Shown here: one piece after another, positions 2,600 to 37,647 of the stretch
How the letters are laid out: each line of letters starts with the position of its first letter
How positions within the stretch are numbered: position 1 is the first letter of the stretch
Assembly: GCA_026169195.1 (NCBI GenBank)
Contig: JAPFEH010000055.1
Coordinates: forward strand, 1 to 64,000
DNA: 64,000 bases
Reading direction: 5' to 3'
DNA from: Dysosmobacter sp.
GTDB taxonomy: Bacteria > Bacillota > Clostridia > Oscillospirales > Oscillospiraceae
Translations under genes and position numbers: made by a program
Notes under the pieces: model-generated
What the model was told of the DNA's origin: nothing
Seen by the model: only the letters and a program-made list of their open reading frames with translations
The model's database searches: none

Positions 2600-3948
2600 T
2601 CAGAGAATAGTGCCAAAAATCAGAAATAGAGCTGCACAGATAACCCACTGTACCATACGGTACGGCATAAAAGCTTTGCTCATTTCAACAGGATCCATTT
2701 CATTAGATCCTGACAGCATGATCAGTACATCAGAAATAGGAGAAGTCTGATCACCGAACTGAGAACCGCTATAACATGCACCAAAAGTAAGCGCAAGACT
2801 TGCATCTACCGCAGAGGCCAAAGGAAGTGCAATGGGCAGCATCATAACCAAAGCGGTACCCAGACTACCAGTGGTATAGGATACTAAGGATGCAACTATA
2901 AATACTAGCAACGGTACGATTACCTTGGATACTGTGCCTCCAAACATTGAAACGATATAATCGGAGAAACCAATTTCAGATAGCATTGAGCCAAAGCCGA
3001 AAGCAAACATCAAAATTAGAAATACAGGTGCCTGATTGACAAAGCCAGAAATACAACCACCACTGATCTCGTTGAACTTAATTGTGCCTCGTGCCAACGG
3101 ATAGATAATCGAAATAAGGCATCCAACCCATAATGCAGGGAGCAGAACAATTCCCTTGCCGATGATAGAGGTGATTGCCAACACAGAGGCAAGCCCAACC
3201 AGAGGCAATGCAAACGATAGAATGTCAGATACGCCCTCGCCATCTGTCGAGTGATTCATTTCATTGATTCGAGCTTGCAGAGAATCTTCGGATTCTGCAT
3301 CAACTTCTTGCTGATGCTTTTTCATCGGCCCAATATCCGGAATTATGCCCATTGCAAACAGGATTGAGGTCAATATAGACAGCATGGTGAAAAAGGAAAA
3401 CCAAATGGACTTGTAGTAGAATGTAAATCCGTCTGTACCCGGTAAAATAGAAGCTACCATACCAGAGCAGAATAGAAAGTACATGCAGAACGGAAGCAGT
3501 GAAGTGATATTTGCCGTGCTGGAAGTGATGAGCCCCAACTTGTGTCTAGCTACTCTATTTTGGAGTGCGACAGGTTTCATAATCTGGCCAACAGTCATAT
3601 CTGCCAAGTAGTCATTTACTGACAACAGAACAGAAAGAGCAAGAGTCATGCCTTTGGTCTTATTGGCAGAGTTGACTTTTTTTCTGCCCACTTTGCGATG
3701 GCTTTAAAGCCGCCCGCTTTTTGCATAAACCATAGCATAATGCCAATAGGAATAAAGGAAATTAGTACATCCCCATTTCCACCGATGCCTTTGACAATAT
3801 GTTCGCCAATGGGGGCTAGAAATCCCCAACCAGAGGTCATTATAGAAATAGAGCACATCCCAATGAACAATGCCATGATAACGTTCTTTGAAAGCAATGC
3901 AATTACAACTGCTAAGATCGGAGGCACAATTGTCCAAATACCAAACAT
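2600..3948 (-). pseudogene. NhaC-family antiporter, interrupted by a -1 frameshift
   Basis: Two overlapping frames together make one integral-membrane transporter of about 450 residues. The first (3948 down to about 3676) gives the N-terminal segments up to KAGGFKAIAKWAEKK. The second continues as VNSANKTKGMTLALS through VNDYLADMTVG to the family motif FGDQTSPISD near the C terminus. NhaC-family proteins exchange Na+ and H+ or organic acids; the real substrate here is unknown. The frames join at seven A residues (complement of 3677-3683) that read A AAA AAG in the zero frame, and a -1 slip restores the family sequence exactly. This is either an indel in the A-run, a sequencing error, or productive slippage. 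It is the last gene of the operon, 55 nt after yjbQ, with its own GGAGAAA site before ATG 3948. Confidence 0.75.
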
Positions 3949-4003
3949 AGTAAATTTCTCCTTCCAAGTAATAGCTCAAGTGGGCCGGACACGGTTTATT
4001 CTG

Positions 4004-4405
4004 CTATCCTGCAATGATTTTTACTATAAATTCTCTTTCGCGTGGGCCGTCAAACTCCAACATATATATTCCCTGCGAAGACCCCAACATCAATTTGCCA
4101 TCAGAAATAATCTGTACCATCGATGTTCCGGTCAATGCGGACTTGATGTGTCCCGAAGCATCTGTGGGTGATTCTTGGTGTTTAAAATCAATTCGGGAAG
4201 GAATCATTTTATTCAATTCGTCCATCAAATCCTCCCAACCAAGAGGGTCCCAGAAGGAAGTAACAACTAAACCTGCTGTAGTATGCGGAATTGAGATTAT
4301 ACAAAAACCATCTTTGATTTCACTCTGGTCAATAATTTCCCTTATCATGCTGGTTAATTCGAGAGCCTGATTATGTTTTGTAGAAACATGTTTTCTTACA
4401 AGCAT
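4004..4405 (-). CDS. YjbQ family (UPF0047) protein
   Basis: 133-residue cytosolic protein with the YjbQ signatures: PHTTAG near residue 45, DASGHIKSALTG near residue 90, and the final GIYMLEFDGPRER. Members are small trimeric barrels annotated as secondary thiamine-phosphate synthases because E. coli YjbQ can partly replace ThiE; the physiological reaction is unsettled. Here it sits inside a sugar-catabolic operon, 14 nt after the SIS gene, which hints at a role on a pathway intermediate and not in thiamine synthesis (inference). The start at 4405 is chosen from AGGAGG placed 6 nt upstream; an in-frame extension to 4423 lacks such a site. Confidence 0.85.
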   Translation of the reverse strand: MLVRKHVSTKHNQALELTSMIREIIDQSEIKDGFCIISIPHTTAGLVVTSFWDPLGWEDLMDELNKMIPSRIDFKHQESPTDASGHIKSALTGTSMVQIISDGKLMLGSSQGIYMLEFDGPREREFIVKIIAG

Positions 4406-4419
4406 GCTTATCCTCCTAA

Positions 4420-5583
4420 TCAAACAATCACAATTTTACTGGTTCTGATGGGATAGACTCCGGAGGGATCTTTCCAATTTCCAGCATCACCCTCACGATA
4501 GTAGTGCCTTCCCAAAAGTTCTCCGATGTACGAACTTAAGAGCACCGCTGGTAAATGTTGCATCAATGGATTATAGCGATAATCCGGTGCGCTGGGGACC
4601 TTACATACCGAAACAAACGGGGGAAGATCCTTGCTTTCTCCGTTTGTAATGACAAGTGTTGGGCGACCAATTCGGGTCATTACTGTAACTGTTTCCAAGC
4701 ATCTTCCATATGATGGACTATCTTTATCTGCAAAAATTACCGTACCAATTTTCTCTGGATGCATATATAGAAAATTCTCATGTAACCAGTTTTCGGAATC
4801 TTCTGCATTAGTAATGCCCCCAAACGCCTCTATGCATTTCCAAGCTGAGAATTGTGCACTAGCAAATGCGCCGCTATCACCTACAAAATCAAAGCTATAT
4901 AAATCCTTCCAGGTTTCTGCCAATTCGCGCATTTGCTTTGCCATCGGTGTAATTACTTCCGGTGTAAACAAATTGATATAATTCATTGCTGTTGCACGGA
5001 TACGATCTTCTTCAGCGGGATCGTAACTCCTTAATACGCGCCCTGCGCGAATGCAAAACGCAAGCAGTGCGAAGCAAGATGCTACGTATGCACAACAGCC
5101 CGGTGCACGTTCTACCGGAGGAGTTTTTAACTCTAATACGTGCCTGCACTCTTTAGCAAGTGGAGTTTCCTTATGATCGGTGATTGCAAGAGTGTTCGCC
5201 CCATAATAGGCTGCGCGTTTTGCTGCTTCTACAATACGCGAGACACTTCCTGAGACACTAATTAAAATGACTAGTGGACTGTTAGGCCCCTTTTTTAGCA
5301 GAGTTGATGGATAGTACCGACTAAAATCAATATTTCTGCAAACATCGACCTCGTATCCAGTCAAAAATTCGATCAGAGGCTTCATTGCGATTCCTGCTAA
5401 ATATGAGTCTCCGCAGCCAGTAATGATCACTTTTTTAGTATCATAGATTTCCTTCATTGTAATGCTGTCCATGAGATACACGAAAGAAAGATTCTGATTG
5501 ATTATTTGCATGAACTCAGGAATCTGCATTACCTGCCGTGCAAGTGGATTAGAAAATAGGTTCTCCATTTCTTCTTGGTTCAT
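4420..5583 (-). CDS. SIS-domain sugar isomerase/deglycase
   Basis: 387-residue cytosolic protein with two sugar-isomerase (SIS) domains. The first shows VIITGCGDSYLAG (about residues 50-62) and the serine-rich loop ILISVSGSVSRIVEA (about 105-120); the second has SFDFVGDSGAFASAQ and VIFADKDSPSYGR. The layout matches the GlmS-isomerase, AgaS and FrlB group, which act on aldose/ketose phosphates or remove an amine from a phosphorylated sugar adduct. No glutaminase domain is present. It lies 16 nt after the PfkB kinase gene, so its substrate is probably the phosphorylated product of that kinase. ATG 5583 fits the AAGAAGGA site better than ATG 5592. The exact substrate cannot be read from sequence. 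Confidence 0.8.
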   Translation of the reverse strand: MNQEEMENLFSNPLARQVMQIPEFMQIINQNLSFVYLMDSITMKEIYDTKKVIITGCGDSYLAGIAMKPLIEFLTGYEVDVCRNIDFSRYYPSTLLKKGPNSPLVILISVSGSVSRIVEAAKRAAYYGANTLAITDHKETPLAKECRHVLELKTPPVERAPGCCAYVASCFALLAFCIRAGRVLRSYDPAEEDRIRATAMNYINLFTPEVITPMAKQMRELAETWKDLYSFDFVGDSGAFASAQFSAWKCIEAFGGITNAEDSENWLHENFLYMHPEKIGTVIFADKDSPSYGRCLETVTVMTRIGRPTLVITNGESKDLPPFVSVCKVPSAPDYRYNPLMQHLPAVLLSSYIGELLGRHYYREGDAGNWKDPSGVYPIRTSKIVIV

Positions 5584-5599
5584 ATGTTGCATCCTTCTT

Positions 5600-6517
5600 T
5601 CAAACGTATTTTTTGCAATATTCTGAAAATATGCTACGTGCCTCAGCTCTCAGCTCATCGCTGAATTTCGGGATAAGGCCGTACTGACGAACGTTGTATG
5701 CCGCTGTGATATTGCACATGACTGCAATTTCTGCAGAAGAATACCCCTCGCAGAAGGCATATAAAGCTGTAGCCGTAGAAGAATTACCACAGCCTGTTGG
5801 GTCCTCTTCTTTTCCGAGCGAAATGCTAGGTACAAAATGTGTTTCGCCATTCATAATCATGTAGGAGCCTTTTGCACCAACACGGAAAAAGCAAGGGGTG
5901 GGATAACTTTTGAGAATTTCGATGGTTTCTTCATCGTTATGAGATCCCAATAATTCTCTGCCTTCACGACTATTGATTGAGAAAATATCTATATTAGGAA
6001 GAATTTCTTCAATCACTTCTCTCGGGTTATTCCAATAATTCTCACGTTGTATTTCCCACATCAACTTAAAACCTTTTTGCTTTTTTAGCTTAATTAACTG
6101 TTTAAAGAACTCTTTTTCAATAGGATGCTCTAGATACATTCCTTTGATATTGTCACAAAATGGTACAATGTCCTCGATGGAAATACGGAGGTATCCGAAA
6201 TTGATCGTGCCAAATTTTCCTGGAAGTCCATACCGATACTCATAACTTCCGTCTGAACGGTACGAAAGTGTAAAGTGATTGGTAAAATCACTTTTTACTT
6301 TAATTCCTTTTGTTGCAATTTTATTTGTTTCAATCCAATTTTTGAAATGTTCGTAATAATCCGCACCAGCGTTGCTTACAATCATGCAATTATCTGTCCA
6401 CAAACGAATCCCAGAATAAGCAAATGCTGCTGGACCGCCAGCATTAATCCCACTATTGCTTCCGTCTGCGAATTCAACAGTGTCAAAGAGCAAGTCGGCT
6501 ATTGCTAAATAGTCCAT
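5600..6517 (-). CDS. PfkB-family carbohydrate kinase, atypical active site
   Basis: 305-residue ribokinase-fold protein. The N-terminal sugar-binding GG is in GSNSGINAGGPAAFAYSG and the C-terminal PfkB signature is DPTGCGNSSTATALYAF. In most family members this motif reads GAGD, where the Asp is the catalytic base; here the residue is Asn (GCGN). The enzyme may use another base, act on an unusual substrate, or be impaired. It would phosphorylate a sugar or sugar adduct for the SIS protein and DeoC-type aldolase beside it. ATG 6517 follows GGAGA with a workable spacing; an in-frame extension to 6610 would overlap deoC and lacks family similarity. Confidence 0.8.
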   Translation of the reverse strand: MDYLAIADLLFDTVEFADGSNSGINAGGPAAFAYSGIRLWTDNCMIVSNAGADYYEHFKNWIETNKIATKGIKVKSDFTNHFTLSYRSDGSYEYRYGLPGKFGTINFGYLRISIEDIVPFCDNIKGMYLEHPIEKEFFKQLIKLKKQKGFKLMWEIQRENYWNNPREVIEEILPNIDIFSINSREGRELLGSHNDEETIEILKSYPTPCFFRVGAKGSYMIMNGETHFVPSISLGKEEDPTGCGNSSTATALYAFCEGYSSAEIAVMCNITAAYNVRQYGLIPKFSDELRAEARSIFSEYCKKYV

Positions 6518-6561
6518 GCAATATATCTCCAATCTTAGAAGTATTTGTAGCTGGGTTGAAG

Positions 6562-7206
6562 TTATCCAGTTATTAAATTCTTTCCGTGGCTCGTGCCAAT
6601 ACGATCGCAACCAGCTTGATAGAAATTTAGAAAATCCTGTTTTTCACTTATTCCCCCAGCTGCTTTGATTCTAATATTGGGTCCAATATGTTCTTTGAAT
6701 AAGCGAATATCTTCTAATTTTGCACCGGATACCCCAAAACCTGTAGAGGTTTTAATAAAATCTGCTCCACCATCAGTAACACACTTGCAAACTTCGATTT
6801 TTTCTTGTTCGGTCAAATTGCATGTCTCTACAATTACCTTAAGACAATGATTGCCTATGGCCGCCTTAATACTAGAAATTTCTTTTGTTACTTCGGAAAA
6901 GTTGCCATCTTTTACAGCCCCTTGATTGATTACCATGTCAATTTCATCGGCACCGTCCTCAATGGCTTCTTTAGCTTCTGCGATCTTTACAGTTGTAGTA
7001 CTATAACCAAGTGGAAAGCCAATCACTGTACAAATACACAGATCGTTAAAGGTGTCTCTTACGCGTTTTACAAATGAAGGTGGAATACAAACGCTTGCAG
7101 TTTCTAATTGTATTGCTTCCTCGCAAAGACCCTTAATTTCTGCCCAGCTGGATGTAGGCCGTAGCAACGTGTGGTCGACGATGCTTAAAATTTTGCGTGT
7201 GTCCAT
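6562..7206 (-). CDS. DeoC-type class I aldolase
   Basis: 214-residue TIM-barrel aldolase of the deoxyribose-phosphate aldolase family. Visible signatures are DHTLLRP (about 11-17), VIGFPLGY, EIDMVINQGA, the KVIVETC strand, and FIKTSTGFG with the Schiff-base lysine, followed by IKAAGGIS. The classical reaction splits 2-deoxyribose 5-phosphate into acetaldehyde and glyceraldehyde 3-phosphate. A second, clearly different DeoC lies at 34.8 kb with purine nucleoside phosphorylase, so this AT-rich copy probably serves the island pathway. It is the first gene of the operon, reading away from the DeoR regulator, with AGGAGGTCATA before ATG 7206. Confidence 0.88.
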   Translation of the reverse strand: MDTRKILSIVDHTLLRPTSSWAEIKGLCEEAIQLETASVCIPPSFVKRVRDTFNDLCICTVIGFPLGYSTTTVKIAEAKEAIEDGADEIDMVINQGAVKDGNFSEVTKEISSIKAAIGNHCLKVIVETCNLTEQEKIEVCKCVTDGGADFIKTSTGFGVSGAKLEDIRLFKEHIGPNIRIKAAGGISEKQDFLNFYQAGCDRIGTSHGKNLITG

Positions 7207-7460
7207 TATGACCTCCTGTTAAAAAATCTGTGGTTACCTTAACAAAACAATAACATTATTTCGGTATAATATCAACTAAAAATGTTAATATCGTAACATT
7301 TCATACATTGTCGCCACAGAAATTGTGCAATATAACATATATTTTCGAGGATTATAGGAGAATAATCATACTGTTTAACTTCCTTCTTTACATTTTTCGT
7401 AAATTGTGTTATCATCAATAACACTTGATCAGAAAGCAATGTTTTTCGGAGATGTTTTAT
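7207..7460. promoter_or_regulatory. Divergent control region with two palindromic operators
   Basis: Between the divergent deoC and deoR genes. ATGTTA (7282-7287) faces TAACAT (7294-7299) and GTGTTAT (7406-7412) faces ATAACAC (7418-7424); both share TGTTA/TAACA half-sites 6-7 nt apart, as expected for one dimeric regulator. On the minus strand TTGATA, a 17-nt spacer and TATTGT form a possible operon promoter just downstream of the first operator. The second palindrome lies about 35 nt before the deoR start, which suggests autoregulation. Confidence 0.6.
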
Positions 7461-8240
7461 ATGTCAAAAAGAGATGACAGACTGACACAAATTGTTAATT
7501 TACTCAAAATTCGAGAGCACTGTTCCATTAAAGAACTCTCCTCTGTGTTCAATGTATCAGAAATGACAATCCGGCGTGATTTGAAGGTTATAGAAGCAAG
7601 TTCTATCGCAAATGTTATAAATGGGGTTGTGATATACAATCCTGCGCAAACAGCACTTAATTCAACCGAGGACTATAACATTATTCTTGAGGGGGAAAAG
7701 CACCGCGCTGAAAAGAAAGCAGTCGGACGATATGCTGCTTCTTTAGTTAATCCTAATGATATTATTATTCTCGATACGGGAACAACGACTGTCCGTATTG
7801 CAGAAAATTTGCCTCAGAATATTCCTCTCACCGTATTGTGCTATAATATTAATATTCTAATGGAATTGTACCGTTTACCCAATGTAGACATTCTTCTTGC
7901 TGGTGGGCATTATTATCGCAATACCCAAATGTTTCAAAGCCCACAAGGCCTTGACTATATTAAGAATACACGTGCGCACAAAGTCTTTATCTCGGTTGCT
8001 GGAATTCACGAAGATCTAGGCCTTACCTGTTGCCATGATAATGAAATTGAAACTAAAAGGGCAATCCTAAATTCTGCACTGGAGAAAATTTTAGTTACAG
8101 ACTCTAGCAAATTCGGGCAAGTACATTCCTCCCATTTTTGTGATTTAACGGATATAGATATGATTATAACCGACAAAAATCTGGAATCTGAATGGGTTCG
8201 CCGTATTCATGAGCTTAATATCAAGCTCCGGTTAGTTTGA
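7461..8240 (+). CDS. DeoR-family transcriptional regulator
   Basis: 259-residue DNA-binding regulator. The N-terminal helix-turn-helix is visible as CSIKELSSVFNVSEMTIRRD (about residues 23-42). It is followed by the DeoR sugar-phosphate sensor domain, with ILDTGTTTVRIAENL (about 108-122) and the C-terminal LVTDSSKFG. Family members repress sugar operons and are released by a phosphorylated intermediate. It is divergent to the aldolase-kinase-isomerase operon and the intergenic palindromes are its likely targets. ATG 7461 is chosen from CGGAGAT 8 nt upstream; ATG 7452 and TTG 7425 are in frame but poorly placed. Confidence 0.85.
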   Translation: MSKRDDRLTQIVNLLKIREHCSIKELSSVFNVSEMTIRRDLKVIEASSIANVINGVVIYNPAQTALNSTEDYNIILEGEKHRAEKKAVGRYAASLVNPNDIIILDTGTTTVRIAENLPQNIPLTVLCYNINILMELYRLPNVDILLAGGHYYRNTQMFQSPQGLDYIKNTRAHKVFISVAGIHEDLGLTCCHDNEIETKRAILNSALEKILVTDSSKFGQVHSSHFCDLTDIDMIITDKNLESEWVRRIHELNIKLRLV

Positions 8241-8438: not shown

Positions 8439-8760
8439 TTAAATAGTCAAGCGAGAACTTGTGTGCTGGGCTTGAGTTAGTATTTCTTTGTCTCTTACAC
8501 CGTTTAGGTAGGTCTGTGTGATGGAGGTATTTTCACGCCCCGGTAGCCCAGACAACGATATAGTCATATTTTAGTTGTTCTTCGGTCAAACTTATTAATT
8601 CGCTCATGCGAATACCTGTATCTATCAGCAGGAGTATGATTACCTTATTGTGAATTTGCAGATATTCGATTTGTTTGCGATAATTCTTTATCGTTTTTGG
8701 AGAAAGATTTCGGCTTTGGCAATGGAATACAAACTCATCGTTTACTGTGGATAGCAACAT
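8439..8760 (-). pseudogene. Remnant of tyrosine recombinase/integrase
   Basis: Broken phage-type integrase. The first 75-codon frame (8760 to 8533) begins with the SAM-like core-binding domain (NLSPKTIKNYRKQIEYLQ), then jumps directly to the catalytic-domain segment LLIDTGIRMSELISL and YIVV, so the stretch between is deleted. A second frame (about 8540 to 8439) supplies the C terminus, ENTSITQTYLNGVRDKE, which contains the presumed catalytic tyrosine. An intact relative would be roughly 300 residues; only about a third remains. It lies at the junction between the AT-rich island and GC-rich backbone and is probably the relic of the element's own integrase. Confidence 0.75.
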
Positions 8761-13850: not shown

Positions 13851-13883
13851 GGATTCCTTTGAATGTGATGAGGAGGAAACGTT

Positions 13884-16709
13884 ATGCGAAAACACAAATT
13901 GCTGGCGGTCCTGCTGGCACTGGCCATGACCATCAGCCTGCTCCCCACGGCTGCGGCTGCGGAAAGCGGCTATCGGGATACCGACGGCCACTGGGCGGAG
14001 ACCGCCATTGACCGCTGGAGCGGCTATGGCATCATTCAGGGCAACAACGGGGCGTTCAACCCCAACGGGGCGCTGACCCGCGCCCATATGGCGGCGATTC
14101 TGACCCGCCTGCTGGGGCTGCCCGCGGCGGACAGCGCCGGCTTTACCGACGTTGACGAGGGCGCGTGGTACGCGGAGTACATCAACCGCTGCGCCGCCGC
14201 CGGCATTATGCTGGGCGCCAACGGAAAGGCCAGCCCCAACGCCCTGATTACCCGCCAGCAGGCGATGGTGATGCTGGCGCGGGCGCTTGGAATCCAGCCC
14301 GTCAAAAATCCGGACCTGAGCGCCTACAAGGACGGCGGAGCGGTCAGTGAGTACGCGCGGGGCTATGTGGCGGCTTTGATCGAAGCCGGCATTGTGAGCG
14401 GCGTCAGCGCGGATACGCTGGGCTGCGGCAGCAGCATCACCCGTGCTGCCACGGTCACCATTCTGGACCGGAGCATCACCACCTATGCCAACCGGCCCGA
14501 CAGTCGGGTGGAGGCGGTTTCCGGCGGCATCGTGCTGGTAGCGGCAGACGGCGTGGAGCTCACCGGCAGCGCGGACAGCGTTCTTGTGACGCAGGGCGCG
14601 GCAGACGGCACGGTGACGCTGGACGGCGTCACGGCGGACAGTGTTCTGGTGCTGGGGGAAAACACGACCGTCCTGCTGGAAGGAGACAGCAAGGCGGAGA
14701 CTGTCACGGTCTCTGAGACCGCTGAGGGCGCGCAGGTCGTGGTGGAAGAGGACGCAAAGGTGACCACCGTGGTTACCGAGGCCCCCGAAAGCAAGGTTTC
14801 CGTGTCCGGTCAGGTGGGCGATGTGGTCACCGCGGAGAGCGCCCGTGAGGCAGCCGTGGAGGTTGCCAAGGGCGGCCGTGTGGAGGAAATCACCGCTGCC
14901 GGCGAAAAGACGGACATTGCCGTTTCCGGCAAGGTGGAGAACGTCACCGTAGAGGAGAGCGCGGAGGATACCACCGTGGAGGCCGGTACCGGCGGCGTCA
15001 TCAGCAAGGTGGACAATGCCGCTGAGGGCACCACGGTCAGCGGCAAGGGCAAGGTGGAGAGCGTGACCACCAGCGGCGACAATACCACCGTGACCACCAA
15101 GGGCACCGAGGTGGAGGTGGAAAAGGGCACCACCGGCACCACCGCCGGCGGCAAGGACGTGTCCGGCGGCACCACCGTCACCACGCCCGGCAGCTCCGGC
15201 TCCGGCGGTTCTTCCTCCGGCGGCGGATCTTCCCATTCCCACCGCTACACCTATCAGGATAACGGCGACGGAACCCATACCGGAACCTGCTCCTGTGGCG
15301 AAAAGACCAGCCCCGAGGCACACAAGGTGGATGATACCGGCGTCTGTACCGTCTGCGGCGCGGACGGATTCGTGGCACGGATCGGCACCACCGGCTACAA
15401 GAACCTGCAGGATGCCCTGAACGTGGGCGGGGATGTTGTTCTGGTGCAGGATGTTATTATTATGCCGGAGGGGATGGGAAAAGGACTTGTTCCCCAGATG
15501 AATGTTGCACATGATACAGTGCTGAACTTGAATGGAAAGAGTATAGCACTTGATCCTAAAGTTGCTGAGGAAAGTCTTACCTATACTCCGGCTATTATGG
15601 ATGTCCCTACCGGCGTGACGCTGACCATCAACGGTTCCGGAACGATCACGGCAGAGGCTGGAAATAACAACAGCTATGGAATTAACGTTATGGGTGGACA
15701 TGTGATCGTCAATGGTGGTAATCACTATGGCGCTATGACAGCTTTCCAAGTCCAAACCGGAGAACTGACCATCAATGACGGTCTGTTTGATTTGGCACCG
15801 ACCTGCAAAGAAGCAGTACCGCAGTATGCAAAGTACATGATCAATGTCATTGATGATAGCTATAAAGATGGAAGCGCCACAATTGCAGTCAAGGGCGGCA
15901 CCTTTGTAAAGTTTGATCCTTCTGCCAACCCCGAAGGACCGGATACCTCTTATGTAGCCGATGGTTACAGCGTTGTGCAGGACGGCGAGAATTACAAGGT
16001 TCTGGAAGGCACCTATGTCTCCACGGAAGAGGAGCTGAACGAGCAGATCAAAAATGGAACGGCGAGCGAGATTCATCTGGCAGGCGATATTGAACTGACA
16101 AATAATCTTTCTGTTTCCCGGGATGTTACGCTGGTGGGACATGGATACGCGATTTCCAAGTATCCCACGTATGTGGGAGCCGAGACCAATGTGGTGTTCC
16201 AGAATGTGAAGTTTGAGGATAACACGGCAACGGACAAGGGGTCCAGTGTCTATGGATCAGGTTTCATGGGAACTATGACGTTTATTGAATGTGCATTTGG
16301 CAATAGTAACTGGGAATCCATTCAGGTCACTCCAAAGGGAGATGCGACTGTATTGATTCAAGACTGCACCTTCACTGCAACAAAGGACATGAAACGGTTT
16401 ATCCACATTGAGCCGGATCCCAGAAATACGTTGCAAGTAAATGTTGCAATCGAAAATTGTTTGTTTACCGGTTGCGAAAAGGTCAATTATAGCAACTCTG
16501 ATACGGTATCTGTAATTGATATGGATTATTTTGCAAGCGGAAGCACCATGACACTGGGTGGGTGTGAGTTCTTCAATACTGATGGGACTGAGGCGACAAA
16601 TGCTCACGCATATTTCTGTGATGCTAACGGACAAAGACCCAGCGAGTATGAGTATGATGGAATGTATTCCAAGCTGACTGGCGGTATTCAAACGTATACC
16701 GTTGACTAA
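13884..16709 (+). CDS. SLH-domain cell-surface protein with beta-helix region
   Basis: 941-residue exported protein. Signal peptide at residues 1-27 (LLAVLLALAMTISLLPTAAA). Three S-layer-homology repeats (about 28-205), recognisable from DGHWAETAID and LTRAHMAAILTRLLG, anchor it to secondary wall polymers. Then comes a low-complexity Val/Thr/Gly region with ENTTV and GKVENVTV-type repeats (about 210-435), a GS-rich hinge, a cysteine-rich module with CSCGEK and CTVCGADG (about 470-495), and a region resembling a parallel beta-helix (about 500-930). The last 1.2 kb is visibly AT-richer than the rest, suggesting exchange of the distal domain. Ligand or adhesion role unknown. GAGGAGGAAACG precedes ATG 13884. 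Confidence 0.88.
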   Translation: MRKHKLLAVLLALAMTISLLPTAAAAESGYRDTDGHWAETAIDRWSGYGIIQGNNGAFNPNGALTRAHMAAILTRLLGLPAADSAGFTDVDEGAWYAEYINRCAAAGIMLGANGKASPNALITRQQAMVMLARALGIQPVKNPDLSAYKDGGAVSEYARGYVAALIEAGIVSGVSADTLGCGSSITRAATVTILDRSITTYANRPDSRVEAVSGGIVLVAADGVELTGSADSVLVTQGAADGTVTLDGVTADSVLVLGENTTVLLEGDSKAETVTVSETAEGAQVVVEEDAKVTTVVTEAPESKVSVSGQVGDVVTAESAREAAVEVAKGGRVEEITAAGEKTDIAVSGKVENVTVEESAEDTTVEAGTGGVISKVDNAAEGTTVSGKGKVESVTTSGDNTTVTTKGTEVEVEKGTTGTTAGGKDVSGGTTVTTPGSSGSGGSSSGGGSSHSHRYTYQDNGDGTHTGTCSCGEKTSPEAHKVDDTGVCTVCGADGFVARIGTTGYKNLQDALNVGGDVVLVQDVIIMPEGMGKGLVPQMNVAHDTVLNLNGKSIALDPKVAEESLTYTPAIMDVPTGVTLTINGSGTITAEAGNNNSYGINVMGGHVIVNGGNHYGAMTAFQVQTGELTINDGLFDLAPTCKEAVPQYAKYMINVIDDSYKDGSATIAVKGGTFVKFDPSANPEGPDTSYVADGYSVVQDGENYKVLEGTYVSTEEELNEQIKNGTASEIHLAGDIELTNNLSVSRDVTLVGHGYAISKYPTYVGAETNVVFQNVKFEDNTATDKGSSVYGSGFMGTMTFIECAFGNSNWESIQVTPKGDATVLIQDCTFTATKDMKRFIHIEPDPRNTLQVNVAIENCLFTGCEKVNYSNSDTVSVIDMDYFASGSTMTLGGCEFFNTDGTEATNAHAYFCDANGQRPSEYEYDGMYSKLTGGIQTYTVD

Positions 16710-16740
16710 AAGACCATTCTGACAGAAGTTCATTCTTTTA

Positions 16741-16780
16741 AGCAGGAGAGCCCCTCAGGGGCTCTCCTGCTGTTCTTTTT
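16741..16780 (+). terminator. Strong terminator after SLH gene
   Basis: AGCAGGAGAGCCCC (16741-16754) / GGGGCTCTCCTGCT (16758-16771), followed by GTTCTTTTT. Confidence 0.92.
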
Positions 16781-16835
16781 CATCAACCTATGCAAAAACT
16801 ACCAAAACTTCCAGAGAATGTTGTGCAAGATACTG

Positions 16836-16866
16836 CTTGCATAAATATTCATCAAAAGAGTATAAT
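16836..16866 (+). promoter_or_regulatory. argG promoter overlapped by ARG box
   Basis: Positions 16836-16853 (CTTGCATAAATATTCATC) match 16 of 18 positions of the ArgR consensus TNTGNATWWWWATNCANA. The -35 TTGCAT (16837-16842) lies inside it, with an 18-nt spacer to -10 TATAAT (16861-16866). ArgR with arginine would block RNA polymerase, repressing the arg cluster from this promoter. Confidence 0.8.
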
Positions 16867-16905
16867 TCATACATCGTCAAACAGAACATACGGAGGAGAT
16901 CCACC

Positions 16906-18132
16906 ATGAAAAAGAACAAAGAAGACATCAAGAAGATCGTGCTGGCTTATTCCGGCGGTCTGGATACATCCATCATCATTCCGTGGCTGAAGGAACACTA
17001 CAACAACCCCGAGATCATCGCCGTGGCCGGCGACGTGGGTCAGAACGATGAGCTGGAGGGTCTGGAGGAAAAAGCCCTCAAGACCGGCGCCAGCAAGCTC
17101 TATATCGCCGATCTCACCGACGAGATGGTGGACGAGGTCATCATCCCCTCCCTGAAAATGGGCGCCAGCTACGAGCAGTACCTGCTGGGCACCGCCTTCG
17201 CCCGGCCCATCATCGGCAAGAAGCTGGTGGAGATCGCCAAGGCCGAGGGCGCCGACGCCATCGCCCACGGCTGCACCGGAAAAGGCAACGATCAGGTGCG
17301 GTTTGAGCTGGCAATCAAGCGGTTTGCGCCGGATATGACCATCATTGCCCCGTGGCGGGAGTGGGACATCAAGGGACGGGACGAGGAGATCGACTACGCC
17401 GAAGCCCACAACGTGCCCCTGAAAATCTCCCGCGAGACCAACTATTCCAAGGATAAGAACCTGTGGCACCTGAGCCACGAGGGTCTGGATCTGGAGGACC
17501 CCGCCAACGAGCCTCTGTACGAAAAGGAGGGCTTTCTGGAGATGGGGGTCAGCCCCATCACCGCTCCCGACCAGCCCACTTATGTGACCATCGACTTTGA
17601 AAAGGGCGTGCCTGTGGCCGTGGACGGCGAGAAGATGAAGGCCAGCGACGTGATCCGCAAGCTCAACAAGCTGGGCGGAGAAAACGGCATCGGCCTTCTG
17701 GACATCGTGGAAAACCGGCTGGTTGGCATGAAGGATCGCGGCGTATACGAGACTCCCGGCGGCACCATTCTCTACAAGGCCCACCAGTGTCTGGAAATGC
17801 TCACAGTGGATAAAGATACAGCCCACATGAAGAGCAAGCTGGCGGTGGACTTCGCGGATCTCATCTATAACGGCAAGTGGTTCACCCCTTTGCGGGAGGC
17901 CCTCAGCGCCTTTGCCGACAAGACGCAGGAGCACGTGACCGGCTCCGTGAAGCTCAAGCTCTACAAGGGCAACATCATCACCTACTCCATCACCTCTCCG
18001 GAGTCCCTGTATTCCGAGGAGCTGGTGACCTTCAATGAAAGCGCCTATGACCAGACCAACGCCACGGGCTTTATCAACCTCTGGGGTCTGCCCGATACGG
18101 TGCTGGCGCTGCGGGAGCAGGGGAAGCTCTAA
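16906..18132 (+). CDS. argG: Argininosuccinate synthase
   Basis: 408-residue enzyme joining citrulline and aspartate with ATP, the penultimate step of arginine synthesis. The PP-loop [20 protein letters not shown] begins near residue 13. Further family signatures are [15 protein letters not shown] and [17 protein letters not shown]. Length is normal. ATG 16906 follows CGGAGGAGATCC; upstream in-frame starts would place the promoter within the gene. It is the first gene of the arginine cluster, with an ARG box over its promoter. Confidence 0.97.
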
Positions 18133-18139
18133 GAGCTTT

Positions 18140-18367
18140 CGGAGGGGAGCGGGCTCCCCTCCGAGCCACCCCACCACCAGTCTTCGGACTGGTGTGTGCG
18201 CCCCAAGGGCGCACGGGTCAAAGTATGTTCGGCAGGTAAACGCCCTGCCGAACATGATTGAAATGGCAGGCGCATGTCCTGCCGAACATGATCGAAACAG
18301 CCGGCAGAGCCGGACACAGCCACAGGACCACAGGTCCGGGGCGGCGAGCTGCTTCGCCCCGGACCTG
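18140..18367 (+). repeat. Five consecutive hairpins between argG and argH
   Basis: Perfect stems: 18140-18150/18153-18163; 18175-18182/18187-18194 with a C(TTCG)G tetraloop; GTGCGCCC 18196-18203/18207-18214; ATGTTCGGCAGG 18225-18236/18244-18255; CAGGTCCGGGGCG 18331-18343/18355-18367. The 15-mer CCTGCCGAACATGAT occurs twice (18244-18258, 18278-18292). No T-runs follow, so these are not ordinary terminators; they may set the argG:argH mRNA ratio or be a repeat family. Confidence 0.85.
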
Positions 18368-18386
18368 TCAGGAAAGGAACCGACAT

Positions 18387-19772
18387 ATGAAACTTTGGGG
18401 CGGACGGTTTCAGAAGGAAACCGACGATTTGGTAAACGAACTCAATGCCTCCATCGGCTTTGACCAGAGGCTGTACAAGGAGGATATCACCGGCTCTCTG
18501 GCCCACGCTGCCATGCTGGCGGACTGCGGCATCATCTCTCAGGAGGATGCCGCCGCCATCGCGGAGGGCCTGCGGGGGATCCTTGCGGACGTGGAGGCCG
18601 GAACGGTGGCATTCACCGCCGATCAGGAAGACATCCACATGAACATCGAGACGCTGCTGACCGCGCGGATCGGGGACGCCGGCAAGCGGCTGCACACCGC
18701 CCGCTCCCGCAACGATCAGGTGGCGCTGGATTTCCGGATGTATGTGCGGGAGCAGATCCCCGTAATCACGGAGCAGCTTCTGGCGCTGGAATCGGTCCTC
18801 TGCAAGCGGGCGAAGGAGTATCAGACCGCCGTCATGCCGGGGTATACCCACCTTCAGCGGGCGCAGCCCATTTCCTTTGCCCAGCACCTGATGGCCTATG
18901 CCGGAATGTTTGCCCGTGACGTGACCCGTCTGGAGGACTGCGCGGCACGGCTCAATGAATGTCCCCTCGGCTCCGGCGCGCTGGCGGGCACCACCTATCC
19001 CATTGACCGCTGGGCCACGGCGGCGGCGCTGGGCTTTGACCGGCCCGTGTCCAATTCGCTGGACGGCGTTTCCGACCGGGATTATGCGCTGGAGCTGATG
19101 AGCGCCCTTTCCATTTTGATGATGCACCTGTCCCGTTTTTCCGAGGAGATCATCCTCTGGTGCAGCTGGGAGTTCAAATTCATCGAGCTGGATGATGCCT
19201 ACGCCACCGGAAGCTCCATCATGCCGCAGAAGAAAAATCCGGATGTGGCGGAGCTGGTGCGGGGCAAAACAGGGCGGGTATACGGCGATTTGATGAGCCT
19301 GCTGACGGTGATGAAGGGCCTCCCGCTGGCGTACAACAAGGATATGCAGGAGGACAAGGAGCCGGTCTTTGACGCGGTGGACACCGTGGAGATGTGCCTG
19401 CCGGTATTCACCGCCATGCTGGATACCATGACCGTCCGCACGGACAACATGCGCTCCGCGGCGGGCAGGGGCTTCATCAACGCCACGGACTGCGCCGACT
19501 ACCTGACCAAAAAGGGGATGCCCTTCCGGGATGCCTATACCGTCACCGGCAATCTGGTGGCTGCCTGCACGGCGCAGGGCAGAACGCTGGAGGAGCTGAC
19601 GCTTCCGGAATTTCAGGAGGTCTCGCCGCTCTTTGAGGCGGATGTATACGAGGCCATCCGTCTGGAAAACTGCATGGCGCTGCGGGCCAGCTACGGCGGC
19701 CCCGCCGTCTCCGAGACCAGCCGCCAGATCGCGGATGCGGAGGCGTTTGTCAAGGCTCATACGAAATCATAA
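18387..19772 (+). CDS. argH: Argininosuccinate lyase
   Basis: 461-residue enzyme that splits argininosuccinate to arginine and fumarate, the last biosynthetic step. It starts MKLWGGRFQKETDD, has TARSRNDQVALDFR (about 110-123) and the fumarase/aspartase signature GSSIMPQKKNPDVAEL (about 273-288). AGGAAAGGAACC precedes ATG 18387; the frame is open further upstream, but that part covers the hairpin cluster and is not family sequence. Confidence 0.97.
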   Translation: MKLWGGRFQKETDDLVNELNASIGFDQRLYKEDITGSLAHAAMLADCGIISQEDAAAIAEGLRGILADVEAGTVAFTADQEDIHMNIETLLTARIGDAGKRLHTARSRNDQVALDFRMYVREQIPVITEQLLALESVLCKRAKEYQTAVMPGYTHLQRAQPISFAQHLMAYAGMFARDVTRLEDCAARLNECPLGSGALAGTTYPIDRWATAAALGFDRPVSNSLDGVSDRDYALELMSALSILMMHLSRFSEEIILWCSWEFKFIELDDAYATGSSIMPQKKNPDVAELVRGKTGRVYGDLMSLLTVMKGLPLAYNKDMQEDKEPVFDAVDTVEMCLPVFTAMLDTMTVRTDNMRSAAGRGFINATDCADYLTKKGMPFRDAYTVTGNLVAACTAQGRTLEELTLPEFQEVSPLFEADVYEAIRLENCMALRASYGGPAVSETSRQIADAEAFVKAHTKS

Positions 19773-34773: not shown

Positions 34774-35430
34774 ATGGAACTCAAGGACATTCTCAGCAGA
34801 TGCGACCACACCCTGCTGGCTCAAACGGCCACGTGGGATGAGATCCGCGCCATTTGCGATGACGGCATGAAATACGGCTGCGCCAGCGTCTGCATCCCCG
34901 CAAGCTATGTCAGGCAGGCGGCGGAATACACGGCGGGCCGGCTGCCCATCTGCACCGTCATCGGCTTCCCCAACGGCTATGACACCACGGCTTCCAAGTG
35001 CTTCATGGCGGAGGACGCCGTGAAAAACGGCGCGGAAGAGGTGGACATGGTCATCAACATCGGCTGGGTCAAGGACCGGAAGTGGGAGGAATTGCTGGAG
35101 GAGATCAAGGCCGTCAAGGCTGCCTGCCACGGAAAGCTTTTGAAGGTCATCATTGAGTGCTGCTTCCTGACGGATGAGGAGAAGATCAAGCTCTGCGAGA
35201 TCGTCACGGCCTCCGGCGCGGACTATATCAAGACCTCCACCGGCTTCGGCGGCGGCGGTGCGACCCGTGAGGACGTGGCGCTGTTTGCCAAGCACGTGGG
35301 CCCGCAGGTGAAGATCAAGGCTGCCGGCGGCATTGCCGATTTGCAGGATGCGGAGGACTTTATCCGGCTGGGGGCGTCCCGTCTGGGCACCAGCCGCATC
35401 GTCAAGGCCGTCAAGGCCATGGAGCAGTGA
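34774..35430 (+). CDS. deoC: Deoxyribose-phosphate aldolase
   Basis: 218-residue class I aldolase cleaving 2-deoxyribose 5-phosphate to acetaldehyde and glyceraldehyde 3-phosphate. [46 protein letters not shown] and [13 protein letters not shown] (Schiff-base lysine) are all present. Backbone-like composition and a place next to purine nucleoside phosphorylase and a nucleoside importer mark this as the housekeeping copy, unlike the AT-rich DeoC at 6.6-7.2 kb. AAGGAGGACGA precedes ATG 34774. Confidence 0.94.
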
Positions 35431-35462
35431 ACAATCAGATTGGATCGGGAGGTTGATACGCC

Positions 35463-36185
35463 ATGGGAACACCCCACAATGAGGCCGCTGCCGGGGCCTT
35501 TGCCAAAACCGTTTTGATGCCGGGAGACCCTCTGCGGGCGGCATTCATTGCCGAGACCTTTTTGCAGGACGCCCGCCTTGTGAACAACGTCCGGGGCGTT
35601 CAGGGCTGGACAGGGACGTATGAGGGGGTCCCTGTGTCTGTGATGGCCTCCGGCATGGGCATGCCCTCCATCGGGATTTACTCCCACGAGCTGTTCCACT
35701 GCTATGATGTGGACAACATCATCCGCGTGGGCAGCGCCGGAGCGCTTTCCCCGAAGCTGAAGCTGCGGGACATCGTCATCGGGCAGGGCGCCTGCACGGA
35801 CTCGGATTACGCCCACCAGTACGAGCTGCCGGGCACCTTTGCCCCCATTGCGGATTTTACGCTGCTGGAGACCGCCGTGGCGCAGGCCAGACGGCTGGGG
35901 GTGGAGCCTGCGGTGGGCAACCTCTTTTCCTCGGATGTGTTTTACAACAAGGCGGGCCGGACGCTGGACTGGGGCGCCATGGGGGTGCTGGCCATTGAGA
36001 TGGAAAGCGCCGCCCTCTACTGCAACGCCGCCGAAGCCGGAAAGCGGGCGCTGACCATCTGCACCATTTCCGACAGTCTGGTCACCGGAGAGGAGCTGCC
36101 GCCTGCCGACCGCCAGACCACCTTTACTCAAATGATGGAGATCGCGCTGAAGGTGGCAGTCGAGATGGCAGGCAGGAAGGATTGA
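35463..36185 (+). CDS. deoD: Purine-nucleoside phosphorylase, DeoD type
   Basis: 240-residue hexameric-type phosphorylase that splits purine (deoxy)nucleosides into base and (deoxy)ribose 1-phosphate. MPGDPLRAAFIAE (about 20-32), IRVGSAGAL (about 90-98) and IEMESAALYCNA (about 178-189) are the DeoD signatures. It follows deoC by 32 nt; a phosphopentomutase linking the two steps is not in the window. Downstream comes a nucleoside-type ABC importer, so uptake, cleavage and sugar catabolism are co-located. Confidence 0.94.
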   Translation: MGTPHNEAAAGAFAKTVLMPGDPLRAAFIAETFLQDARLVNNVRGVQGWTGTYEGVPVSVMASGMGMPSIGIYSHELFHCYDVDNIIRVGSAGALSPKLKLRDIVIGQGACTDSDYAHQYELPGTFAPIADFTLLETAVAQARRLGVEPAVGNLFSSDVFYNKAGRTLDWGAMGVLAIEMESAALYCNAAEAGKRALTICTISDSLVTGEELPPADRQTTFTQMMEIALKVAVEMAGRKD

Positions 36186-36220
36186 GCGGAAAGCGCCGCC
36201 CGCAGGGCGGAACAGGGCGG

Positions 36221-36250
36221 AGGGGAGCGAAAGCTCCCCTTTCGCTGTTT
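36221..36250 (+). terminator. Possible weak terminator after deoD
   Basis: AGGGGAGC, loop GAAA, GCTCCCCT (36221-36240), then TTCGCTGTTT. The same stem sequence recurs between argG and argH at 18141-18162. Confidence 0.55.
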
Positions 36251-36333
36251 GAAGGGAAGCGGGCGTTTTGCCCGTGAAGTGCCCCGAATTGTGAAGAAAT
36301 TTTGACAAATCCGAAAACAATGCGGTGTGCCGG

Positions 36334-36362
36334 TTGAAATCGCCGGAAAAAGTTGCTATAAT
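36334..36362 (+). promoter_or_regulatory. Promoter of nucleoside importer
   Basis: TTGAAA (36334-36339), a 17-nt spacer, TATAAT (36357-36362). The leader has an ACCTCCG/CGGAGGT hairpin near 36386-36406. Confidence 0.75.
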
Positions 36363-36432
36363 AAGCTCGACCGTTCAAGGTCAGACCTCCGCTGTGCCGG
36401 AGGTTCAATAATTTGAAGGAAGGTAGATTCCA

Positions 36433-37647
36433 ATGAAGAAGTTTCTTGCTTTGATTCTGGCATTGGTCATGTCCCTCTCTCTGGTCGCCTGCGGCGGCAA
36501 GGACGAGGAAGCACCTGTAGAGCCCGCTCCCGGAACGGAGGAGCCTGCCGGGCAGACCGCTGAGTTCAGCGTTGCCATGATCACGGACTACGGCGATATC
36601 ACCGACCAGTCCTTTAACCAGACCACCTATGAGGCCTGCAAGGCCTACTGCGACGCCAACGGCGTGACCTTCAACTATTTCAAGCCCGCCGGCAATAACA
36701 CCGCTGACCGCGTGGCCATGGTGGAAAAGGCCGTGGATGAGGGCTATACCGTCATTGTCATGCCCGGCTATGCATTTGCCGGCACCATCGTTGAGGTTCA
36801 GGATGAATATTCCGACATCACCTTTGTGGGTCTGGACGTGTCCGAGTTCGACATTGAGGACTGCTTCTACAACCACGATGATACCGGTGCCCGCACCGGT
36901 CTGATCGATCCCGAAAATGAGCCTCATGTGGCTTCCAATGTTTATTGCGCCGTGTATCAGGAAGAGCTGTGCGGCTACATGGCAGGCTACGCCGCTGTGA
37001 AGCTGGGCTACACCCATCTGGGCTTCTTGGGCGGCATGGCGGTTCCCGCTGTTGTCCGCTATGGCTACGGTTTCGTGCAGGGCGCTGACGCGGCCGCTGT
37101 GGAGACCGGCGCCGATGTGACCGTGGAGTATGTTTACGGCAACCAGTTCTCCGGCGACGCCGACATCACCGCTTACATGGACAACTGGTATCAGACGCTG
37201 GGCGTGCAGGCCGTGTTCGCCTGCGGCGGCGGCATCTTCATTTCTGCAGCTGAGGCTGCTGCCAAGGTGGATGGCGCCAAGGTCATCGGCGTGGACGTGG
37301 ATCAGGCCGGCATCATCGACGGCGGCTACGGCGAGGGCATGACCCTGACCTCTGCCATGAAGGGCCTTGCTCCCACCGTGGAGCATATGCTCAGCGAGAT
37401 CGCTGCCGGCAACTGGGCCAACTACGGCGGCAAGATCGAGTCTCTGGGCCTTGTGAACGGCGACGATCCCACCGCCAACTATGTCCAGCTGCCCATGGAG
37501 TCCACCCAGTGGGGCGACGGCTTTACGCAGGATGACTATAAGGCTCTGGTGAAGGACATGTTCGACGGCAAGATCACCGTGTCCAATGACGTCACTGCCA
37601 TGCCCGAGACCACCATCACGGTCAACGAGTACGGCAACATCAAGTAA
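36433..37647 (+). CDS. BMP/PnrA-family nucleoside-binding lipoprotein
   Basis: 404-residue lipoprotein: signal peptide and lipobox LSLVACGGK (cysteine about 20), then the basic membrane protein fold: VAMITDYGDITDQSFNQTTY, then YTVIVMPGYAFAGTI, then LGFLGGMAVPAVVRYGYGF. Family members such as PnrA and BmpA bind purine nucleosides for ABC import. It is immediately followed by the matching ATPase and two permeases, and preceded by deoC-deoD. An internal terminator after it would keep the binding protein in excess. GAAGGAAGGTAG precedes ATG 36433. Confidence 0.9.
   Translation: MKKFLALILALVMSLSLVACGGKDEEAPVEPAPGTEEPAGQTAEFSVAMITDYGDITDQSFNQTTYEACKAYCDANGVTFNYFKPAGNNTADRVAMVEKAVDEGYTVIVMPGYAFAGTIVEVQDEYSDITFVGLDVSEFDIEDCFYNHDDTGARTGLIDPENEPHVASNVYCAVYQEELCGYMAGYAAVKLGYTHLGFLGGMAVPAVVRYGYGFVQGADAAAVETGADVTVEYVYGNQFSGDADITAYMDNWYQTLGVQAVFACGGGIFISAAEAAAKVDGAKVIGVDVDQAGIIDGGYGEGMTLTSAMKGLAPTVEHMLSEIAAGNWANYGGKIESLGLVNGDDPTANYVQLPMESTQWGDGFTQDDYKALVKDMFDGKITVSNDVTAMPETTITVNEYGNIK

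Follow-up and report, generated by a model that had tools for sequence, protein, structure and literature searches.

What does a compact set of catabolic genes do when its members belong to recognizable families and their combination matches no assigned pathway? The question is raised by positions 2600-8240 of a 64-kb stretch of Dysosmobacter sp. DNA (contig JAPFEH010000055.1; hereafter the window, meaning all 64,000 nucleotides analysed). Here, genes for a DeoC-type aldolase, a PfkB-family kinase, a SIS-domain protein, YjbQ and an NhaC/DcuC-type transporter form an operon, with a gene for a DeoR-family regulator divergent from it. The first-pass annotation of this DNA knew of no pathway that uses this exact set, and none to which it is assigned was found here. 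The island is a real, horizontally acquired and conserved catabolic unit without a pathway assignment. The reading proposed here, to which a probability of roughly 0.42 is given, is that the operon may encode a Fra/Frl-like route of import, phosphorylation and deglycation for sugar-amine (Amadori-type) conjugates, with YjbQ as a dedicated partner and DeoC and DeoR as additions.

Gene content, clustering, YjbQ subfamily, conservation of the catalytic pair, operator-like sites and island composition were all computed here. Pfam and NCBIfam scans, together with open reading frame (ORF) coordinates, place every family named in the first-pass annotation where it had been put. Transcription runs on the minus strand from DeoC through the PfkB kinase (5600-6517; Pfam PfkB, 53.9 bits), which is of sugar/nucleoside type and has no equivalog, the GlmS/FrlB-type SIS protein (4420-5592; Pfam SIS, 60.6 bits), which resembles phosphosugar isomerases and deglycases, and YjbQ (UPF0047; 4004-4405; PF01894, 114.9 bits, gathering score 27) to the transporter (2600-3948). 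The five genes are as closely spaced as had been claimed, with intergenic gaps of 44, 7, 14 and 55 bp. The description of an AT-rich island was also borne out, since the per-gene G+C of the operon is 38–43% compared to 58% for the whole window.

Four of these genes form a core that recurs elsewhere. In Ruminococcaceae bacterium Marseille-P2935 (locus L003), homologues of the transporter (70–73% identical), the PfkB kinase (66%), the SIS protein (60%) and YjbQ (68%) stand together on a stretch of 42% G+C, similar to the island's composition. This locus has an FCD-type GntR regulator, a tryptophanase-family gene that begins 285 bp after YjbQ, and neither a DeoC nor a DeoR-type ORF. Marseille-P2935 is the sole relative found in a scan of named genomes, and close relatives of the SIS protein are scarce: they occur in 2 of 394 genomes of the order (E ≤ 1e-30), 1 of 391 of the class (1e-40), 2 of 86 of the genus (1e-40) and 1 of 398 of the phylum (1e-35), in overlapping samples that each count the window's own genome. 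A SIS profile at E ≤ 1e-50 likewise found only the window's own genome among 295 of the order. Further afield, a Rhizobium leguminosarum plasmid (L013) carries the SIS, YjbQ and PfkB trio in one stretch; it is the top-ranked plasmid match for the window SIS and YjbQ and the sole plasmid match for the kinase. A genome-neighbourhood comparison had been suggested as the check on conservation. It gives recurrence of transporter, PfkB, SIS and YjbQ in L003, and SIS-YjbQ clusters elsewhere establish co-occurrence outside this genome; the exact five-family set, with DeoC, is not conserved. The L003 quartet and the clustering of YjbQ with SIS rule out a chance cluster for the four-gene core. Tryptophanase is a possible further partner; a relative lies on another contig of the window genome, with two matched segments (best 43% identity) and a 589-residue open frame.

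The tightest association within the core is that of SIS with YjbQ, which the first-pass annotation had called an unexpected partner and which proves to be closely SIS-linked. It was measured with a SIS profile made from 8 copies, for some of which a neighbouring YjbQ had been seen beforehand, and with Pfam's own UPF0047 model. Across nine genomes with 67 SIS copies, 31 of 46 YjbQ genes have a SIS copy no more than 500 bp away, compared to 0.53 expected if YjbQ were placed at random. Tandem duplication inflates the observed count, and because array copies are not independent, the effective number of observations is below the raw counts. Two of the 15 YjbQ genes scored as not near sit in SIS arrays behind another YjbQ. 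Seen from the other side, 29 of the 67 SIS copies have a YjbQ within 500 bp; one of the nine genomes (G777) belongs to the window's genus and has a YjbQ next to a SIS protein 30% identical to that of the window. The SIS profile matches 7 of 119 genomes in the family of genome G329, with at least 65 copies in all and at least 16 in one genome.

Similar arrangements are seen in 28 wider stretches of up to 20 kb with 49 SIS copies, counted at 100 bits or more so that one weaker match each in L018, L061 and L073 is left out. A same-strand YjbQ lies within 1.8 kb of 27 of these copies and a PfkB gene within 6 kb of 36, and 31 adjoin another SIS. Arrays such as PfkB-SIS-YjbQ-SIS-YjbQ recur, and L070 has two YjbQ domains in one frame. 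Next to its SIS-YjbQ array, the same stretch has a tandem row of five PfkB kinase genes (13880-18711).

The YjbQ proteins found beside SIS differ from housekeeping YjbQs. A tree of 49 YjbQ domains places all 30 rows taken from SIS loci, that of Rhizobium among them, on one side of a branch; the only other row there is the YjbQ of L087, whose 8-kb stretch lacks a SIS of this family. Branch support is moderate (95/73) and the bootstrap is not fully settled. All eight housekeeping YjbQs share a Glu and a Trp at two positions where the other 41 rows mostly have Ser or Thr, Ser most often; each of several His, Lys, Glu and Asp positions is retained in 33–38 of those 41. The window YjbQ scores 201 bits against the SIS-linked subfamily profile and 110 against the housekeeping profile, its own row being part of the training set. 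A further 295 genomes of the order yielded 31 YjbQ matches at E ≤ 1e-25, of which 30 were typed (the match in G023, stretch L123, was left out). Twenty-eight are of housekeeping type and lack a SIS of this family in the surrounding 1.5 kb or so, one (L121) is ambiguous at 102 vs 87 bits and likewise has no such SIS nearby, and the window YjbQ is the sole clearly SIS-type protein among them.

YjbQ is also found in other settings. The L121/L122 locus represents another type of YjbQ-linked sugar operon, with PfkB, Amidohydro_2, YjbQ, LacI-like, glycyl-radical enzyme, activase-like and transaldolase/FSA-type ORFs at 6929-14295 of L122, the LacI and activase labels being given by eye. On two Enterococcus plasmids, genes for a class II aldolase, a triose-phosphate isomerase and YjbQ follow one another (L019, 6387-8462; L020, 6418-8465). 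The YjbQ family occurs in bacteria and archaea and was present in 10 of 14 control genomes.

The SIS protein reaches the cut-off of no equivalog model, yet it keeps a known catalytic pair. In alignments, E255 and H271 take the places of the Glu and His shared by GlmS, FrlB and AgaS, and residues 3–361 match GlmS isomerase domains in phmmer (E 2.6e-6). The glutamate is kept in 56 of 59 SIS copies and the histidine also in 56 of 59; a C-terminal lysine of the window protein is kept in just 20. In other members, the corresponding numbering is presumably E488/H504 for GlmS and H230 for the FraB histidine. Passages of PMC12755824 in which H230 was sought do not contain it; they do describe FraB E214A as catalytically inactive. 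A single-sequence AlphaFold model of the SIS protein (mean predicted local distance difference test score 36.4, predicted template modelling score 0.26) was too poor for fold comparison. Genomes G1246, G1269, G1275, G1283, G1334 and G329 (L057-L076) hold many SIS paralogues each, often as tandem pairs, and since the glutamate is lost in 3 of 59 copies and the histidine in 3 of 59, an active subunit may be joined to an inactive one in some of the pairs.

The closest functional parallel is the use of fructose-asparagine in Salmonella, for which passages of PMC4072780 describe a kinase (FraD), a deglycase (FraB) and a Dcu-family homologue (FraA). The fra locus, as these passages describe it, resembles the operon in having a SIS-type enzyme, a sugar kinase and a transporter of putative Dcu type together, and FraB likewise has a catalytic Glu (E214); the ion-coupled transporter is therefore less surprising than the first-pass annotation had held. 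The likeness is one of description rather than of direct sequence comparison, and there are differences: fra has a GntR regulator where the window has DeoR, and the window adds DeoC and YjbQ. The asparaginase FraE is absent among the seven scanned proteins of 2600-8240, whose genes overlap the remaining listed ORFs. The fructoselysine (frl) system of E. coli and Bacillus shares the logic of a SIS deglycase with a PfkB kinase, whereas the scanned operon proteins give no FrlB or FrlD equivalog match and include no FrlA-kind permease and no FrlC. A third parallel is a frl-like locus on Enterococcus faecium DO plasmid 2 (L018), where YjbQ lies beside kinase, permease, GntR and SIS genes; its permease is FrlA-like, at 532.5 bits and below the cut-off of 800. 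There, in contrast to the window, YjbQ and SIS belong to other subfamilies and amidohydrolases are present. In gene logic the operon resembles Fra and Frl, of which it is at best a candidate member. The conserved Glu/His pair of SIS, the three activities of Fra, the inactivity of FraB E214A and the E. faecium locus that joins YjbQ to FrlD together favour a route in which phosphorylation precedes deglycation.

The proposed substrate class, order of reactions, YjbQ chemistry, repressor action and DeoC role are what we infer from these comparisons. The four-gene core would comprise the transporter, the PfkB kinase, the SIS enzyme and the SIS-linked YjbQ. The transporter would import a sugar-amine conjugate, the likeliest being an Amadori-type fructosamine formed with an amino acid or a related amine, and the kinase would phosphorylate the terminal carbon of its sugar. 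The SIS enzyme, through Glu255 and His271, would then isomerize the phosphorylated ketosamine toward an aldosylamine, hydrolysis of which would release a sugar phosphate and the free amine. The same phosphosugar intermediate may be acted on by YjbQ, through ring opening, anomerization or glycosylamine phosphate hydrolysis. In the window's lineage DeoC and DeoR would have joined, with DeoR repressing both divergent transcripts through two palindromes and DeoC consuming a product or inducer that resembles deoxyribose-5-phosphate.

Several observations weigh against this proposal. The window kinase does not match the FrlD model (NF007321), which the L018 kinase, as a positive case, matches at 295.9 bits (cut-off 247). 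The window SIS gives no NCBIfam equivalog match to FrlB: at E ≤ 0.001 it has no match to the FrlB deglycase model (NF008481), to which the L003 SIS scores 19.3 bits (cut-off 430). The window SIS is only 13–20% identical to the E. faecium SIS, FrlB (14%), AgaS and GlmS. The YjbQ of the E. faecium frl locus has a long branch in the tree and does not group with the SIS-linked rows, so the link between YjbQ and frl there is a separate association. No YjbQ lies within 500 bp of 38 of the 67 SIS copies, and seven SIS stretches without YjbQ hold BtpA-family proteins, assigned by annotation (L011, L012), Pfam (L075, L061) or sequence cluster (L068, L071, L076). Nucleoside hydrolases or phosphorylases also occur at several SIS loci, both where YjbQ is present and where it is absent, and they speak for N-glycosides over Amadori products. 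The transporter frame is interrupted in the present assembly. Finally, score and residues make DeoC a regular 2-deoxyribose-5-phosphate aldolase (DERA), and an Amadori pathway offers no obvious substrate for it; DERA is not known to cleave the product of a deglycase, a 2-hydroxy aldose phosphate. Taken as a whole, the SIS family may accept a range of sugars that are N-glycosidic or linked to an amine. In some of the stretches with BtpA, such as L011 and L012, BtpA/SgcQ directly adjoins SIS and is a possible alternative partner; some also have BMP-type or other ATP-binding cassette transporters.

DeoC and DeoR are the basis of the first alternative, which is unlikely: salvage of deoxyribose or of 2-deoxyribosyl conjugates. 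The PfkB protein would be a deoxyribokinase-like enzyme, DeoC would turn deoxyribose-5-phosphate into acetaldehyde and glyceraldehyde-3-phosphate, DeoR would be its sensor, and SIS and YjbQ would remove an amine or base. DeoC (6562-7206, minus strand) is indeed a full DERA-type class I aldolase, with 234.5 bits to the TIGR00126 deoC equivalog (cut-off 117.3). Its K152, K181 and D90, which we take from the E. coli residues to be the Schiff-base lysine, the second lysine and the aspartate, are invariant in E. coli DeoC and in a second DeoC of the window. The window also shares a DeoR-type regulator and a PfkB kinase with the deo operon and deoxyribose kinase pathway, in which SIS and YjbQ have no known place. 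The SIS isomerase would presumably be superfluous for deoxyribose. Moreover, L003 has no DeoC or DeoR-type ORF, and none of the other 27 of the 28 SIS stretches has a DeoC. With DeoC beside this SIS family in the window alone, it is ruled out as part of the conserved core, and kinase, isomerase and aldolase do not together constitute that core. The parallel with such three-enzyme pathways drawn in the first-pass annotation thus holds for a kinase and SIS catabolic operon near frl/fra logic, and fails for the aldolase. DeoC and DeoR would be best seen as a local, lineage-specific addition; alternatively, they may signal the production of deoxyribose-5-phosphate here.

The second DeoC, which the first-pass annotation had placed at 34.8 kb, is present (34774-35430) and is 50% identical to that of the operon. 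It had been taken to mean that the operon enzyme has a different job; that enzyme retains the catalytic residues of DERA, so its sequence gives no reason to assume one. An altered active site in the operon DeoC was considered and finds no support: its odd C-terminal phosphate-loop residues differ in the second DeoC too. Downstream of the second DeoC, within 34774-37647, two further ORFs were recognized by eye: 35463-36185 resembles nucleoside phosphorylases and 36433-37647 resembles BMP-type binding proteins.

The regulator gene (7461-8240) lies on the plus strand, divergent from the operon as had been described, and encodes DeoRC (162.8 bits) and HTH_DeoR (46.3 bits) Pfam domains. Its best NCBIfam match is the DeoR repressor at 173.5 bits, which favours the deoxyribose alternative; the E. 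coli-type DeoR equivalog (NF007961) has a cut-off of 244, which it misses. TGTTA and TAACA half-sites, which we take to be similar to the E. coli DeoR operator, favour it as well. The pattern TGTTA-N4..8-TAACA occurs exactly twice in the 64 kb, where 0.03 are expected; none of 100 shuffles contains two, and both lie between deoC and deoR, so that the matching palindromes reported earlier are the only ones in the window. The first, AAATGTTA-N6-TAACATTT, lies 5′ of deoC (7280-7301) and has perfect 8+8 arms around 6 nucleotides. The second, GTGTTAT-N5-ATAACAC (7406-7424), has perfect 7+7 arms around 5 nucleotides and lies on a -10-like match 5′ of deoR. One palindrome overlaps a promoter-like match and the other is 4 bp from one; this is weak evidence because the window has 23 such matches compared to 17.4 ± 4.0 in shuffles.

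It is quite unlikely that the unit is decaying cargo, in which a broken transporter frame leaves the pathway no longer functional in this genome. The family and place of the NhaC-type transporter stand as first annotated. A single open frame is not what is found: two ORFs, 3646-3948 and 2600-3691, are read in different frames, and their overlap lies around an A-run close to position 3680. ORF 2600-3691 matches the Pfam families Na_H_antiporter (75.8 bits) and DcuC (31.4 bits, cut-off 23.1) and NCBIfam DcuC models below their cut-off; ORF 3646-3948 has no Pfam match. The L003 homologue, a single frame of 445 residues, is 70–73% identical to both. An assembly artefact, an inactivating mutation and slippage could each explain the break. 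Decay would also account for the foreign G+C and for the truncated tyrosine-recombinase-like remnant at the right edge of the island (8439-8760, minus strand), in which 8533-8760 matches Phage_integrase (E 3.2e-5) at 24.2 bits, below the curated cut-off of 27.1, and 8439-8567 was labelled by eye. Against it, the other five genes are open over the expected length, and a single A-run difference in a draft assembly may be an artefact.

Catabolism of nucleoside-like N-glycosides is decidedly improbable. A nucleoside-type PfkB kinase would act first, SIS and YjbQ would open and cleave a 5′-phosphorylated N-glycoside, and the diverse SIS loci would serve modified nucleosides. Such loci do include nucleoside hydrolases (L009 and L066 by Pfam, L059 by cluster membership), PNP_UDP phosphorylases (L013, L076) and BMP-type binding proteins (L011 by annotation, L061 and L076 in the same sequence cluster). 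The sole NCBIfam match of the L003 kinase is to a nucleoside kinase, at 38.4 bits against a cut-off of 450. However, no base-processing protein occurs among the scanned operon proteins or the scanned or recognized L003 ORFs, and no SIS enzyme is known to cleave nucleosides. Equally improbable is amino-sugar catabolism with SIS as an AgaS/NagB-II-like deaminase-isomerase and DeoC as a class I aldolase on its product, since the scores to NagB-II (30 bits for the window SIS, 41.6 for L003) and GlmS models (53–55 and 76 bits) are far under the curated cut-offs of 430 and 381–418, the scanned operon proteins include neither a phosphotransferase system nor a deacetylase, and DeoC is not conserved. 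The sulfoquinovose (yih) pathway shares the logic of isomerase, kinase, class I aldolase and DeoR, whereas the window aldolase is of DERA type. Sulfoquinovose pathway enzymes belong to other families, none of which turned up in general family scans of the operon proteins, which were not aimed at them.

Returning to YjbQ, its pairing with SIS is the most valuable part of these results. No SIS-YjbQ module appears in the listed titles and abstract openings of openly accessible papers on YjbQ, fructose-asparagine, fructoselysine, other Amadori products and deglycases, BtpA, thiamine-phosphate synthase and deoxyribose, and no such paper came up on SIS, PfkB and DERA in one catabolic pathway. In a 2021 review (PMC7954711), a figure legend labels YjbQ as of 'unknown function', and the text describes rescue of a pdxB mutant by YjbQ overexpression through a route left unresolved. 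The other activity named for YjbQ is reportedly that of a thiamin phosphate synthase, at a low, secondary level. It is possible, if doubtful, that the SIS-linked YjbQ is a dedicated enzyme, with its own distinct step such as ring opening, anomerization or hydrolysis of phosphorylated glycosylamines, of a widespread and previously undescribed kinase, SIS and YjbQ module for phosphosugar cleavage.

The tight and repeated pairing of YjbQ with SIS and PfkB narrows the substrates for enzymologists to try. If the SIS-linked YjbQ is indeed such a dedicated enzyme, YjbQ/UPF0047 would gain its first pathway role, and by implication housekeeping YjbQ would remove spontaneously formed phosphosugar amines. 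Some genomes of the order, with at least 16 SIS copies in one of them, may carry large unannotated gene sets for sugar-amines, which suggests a possible relevance to glycated food compounds.

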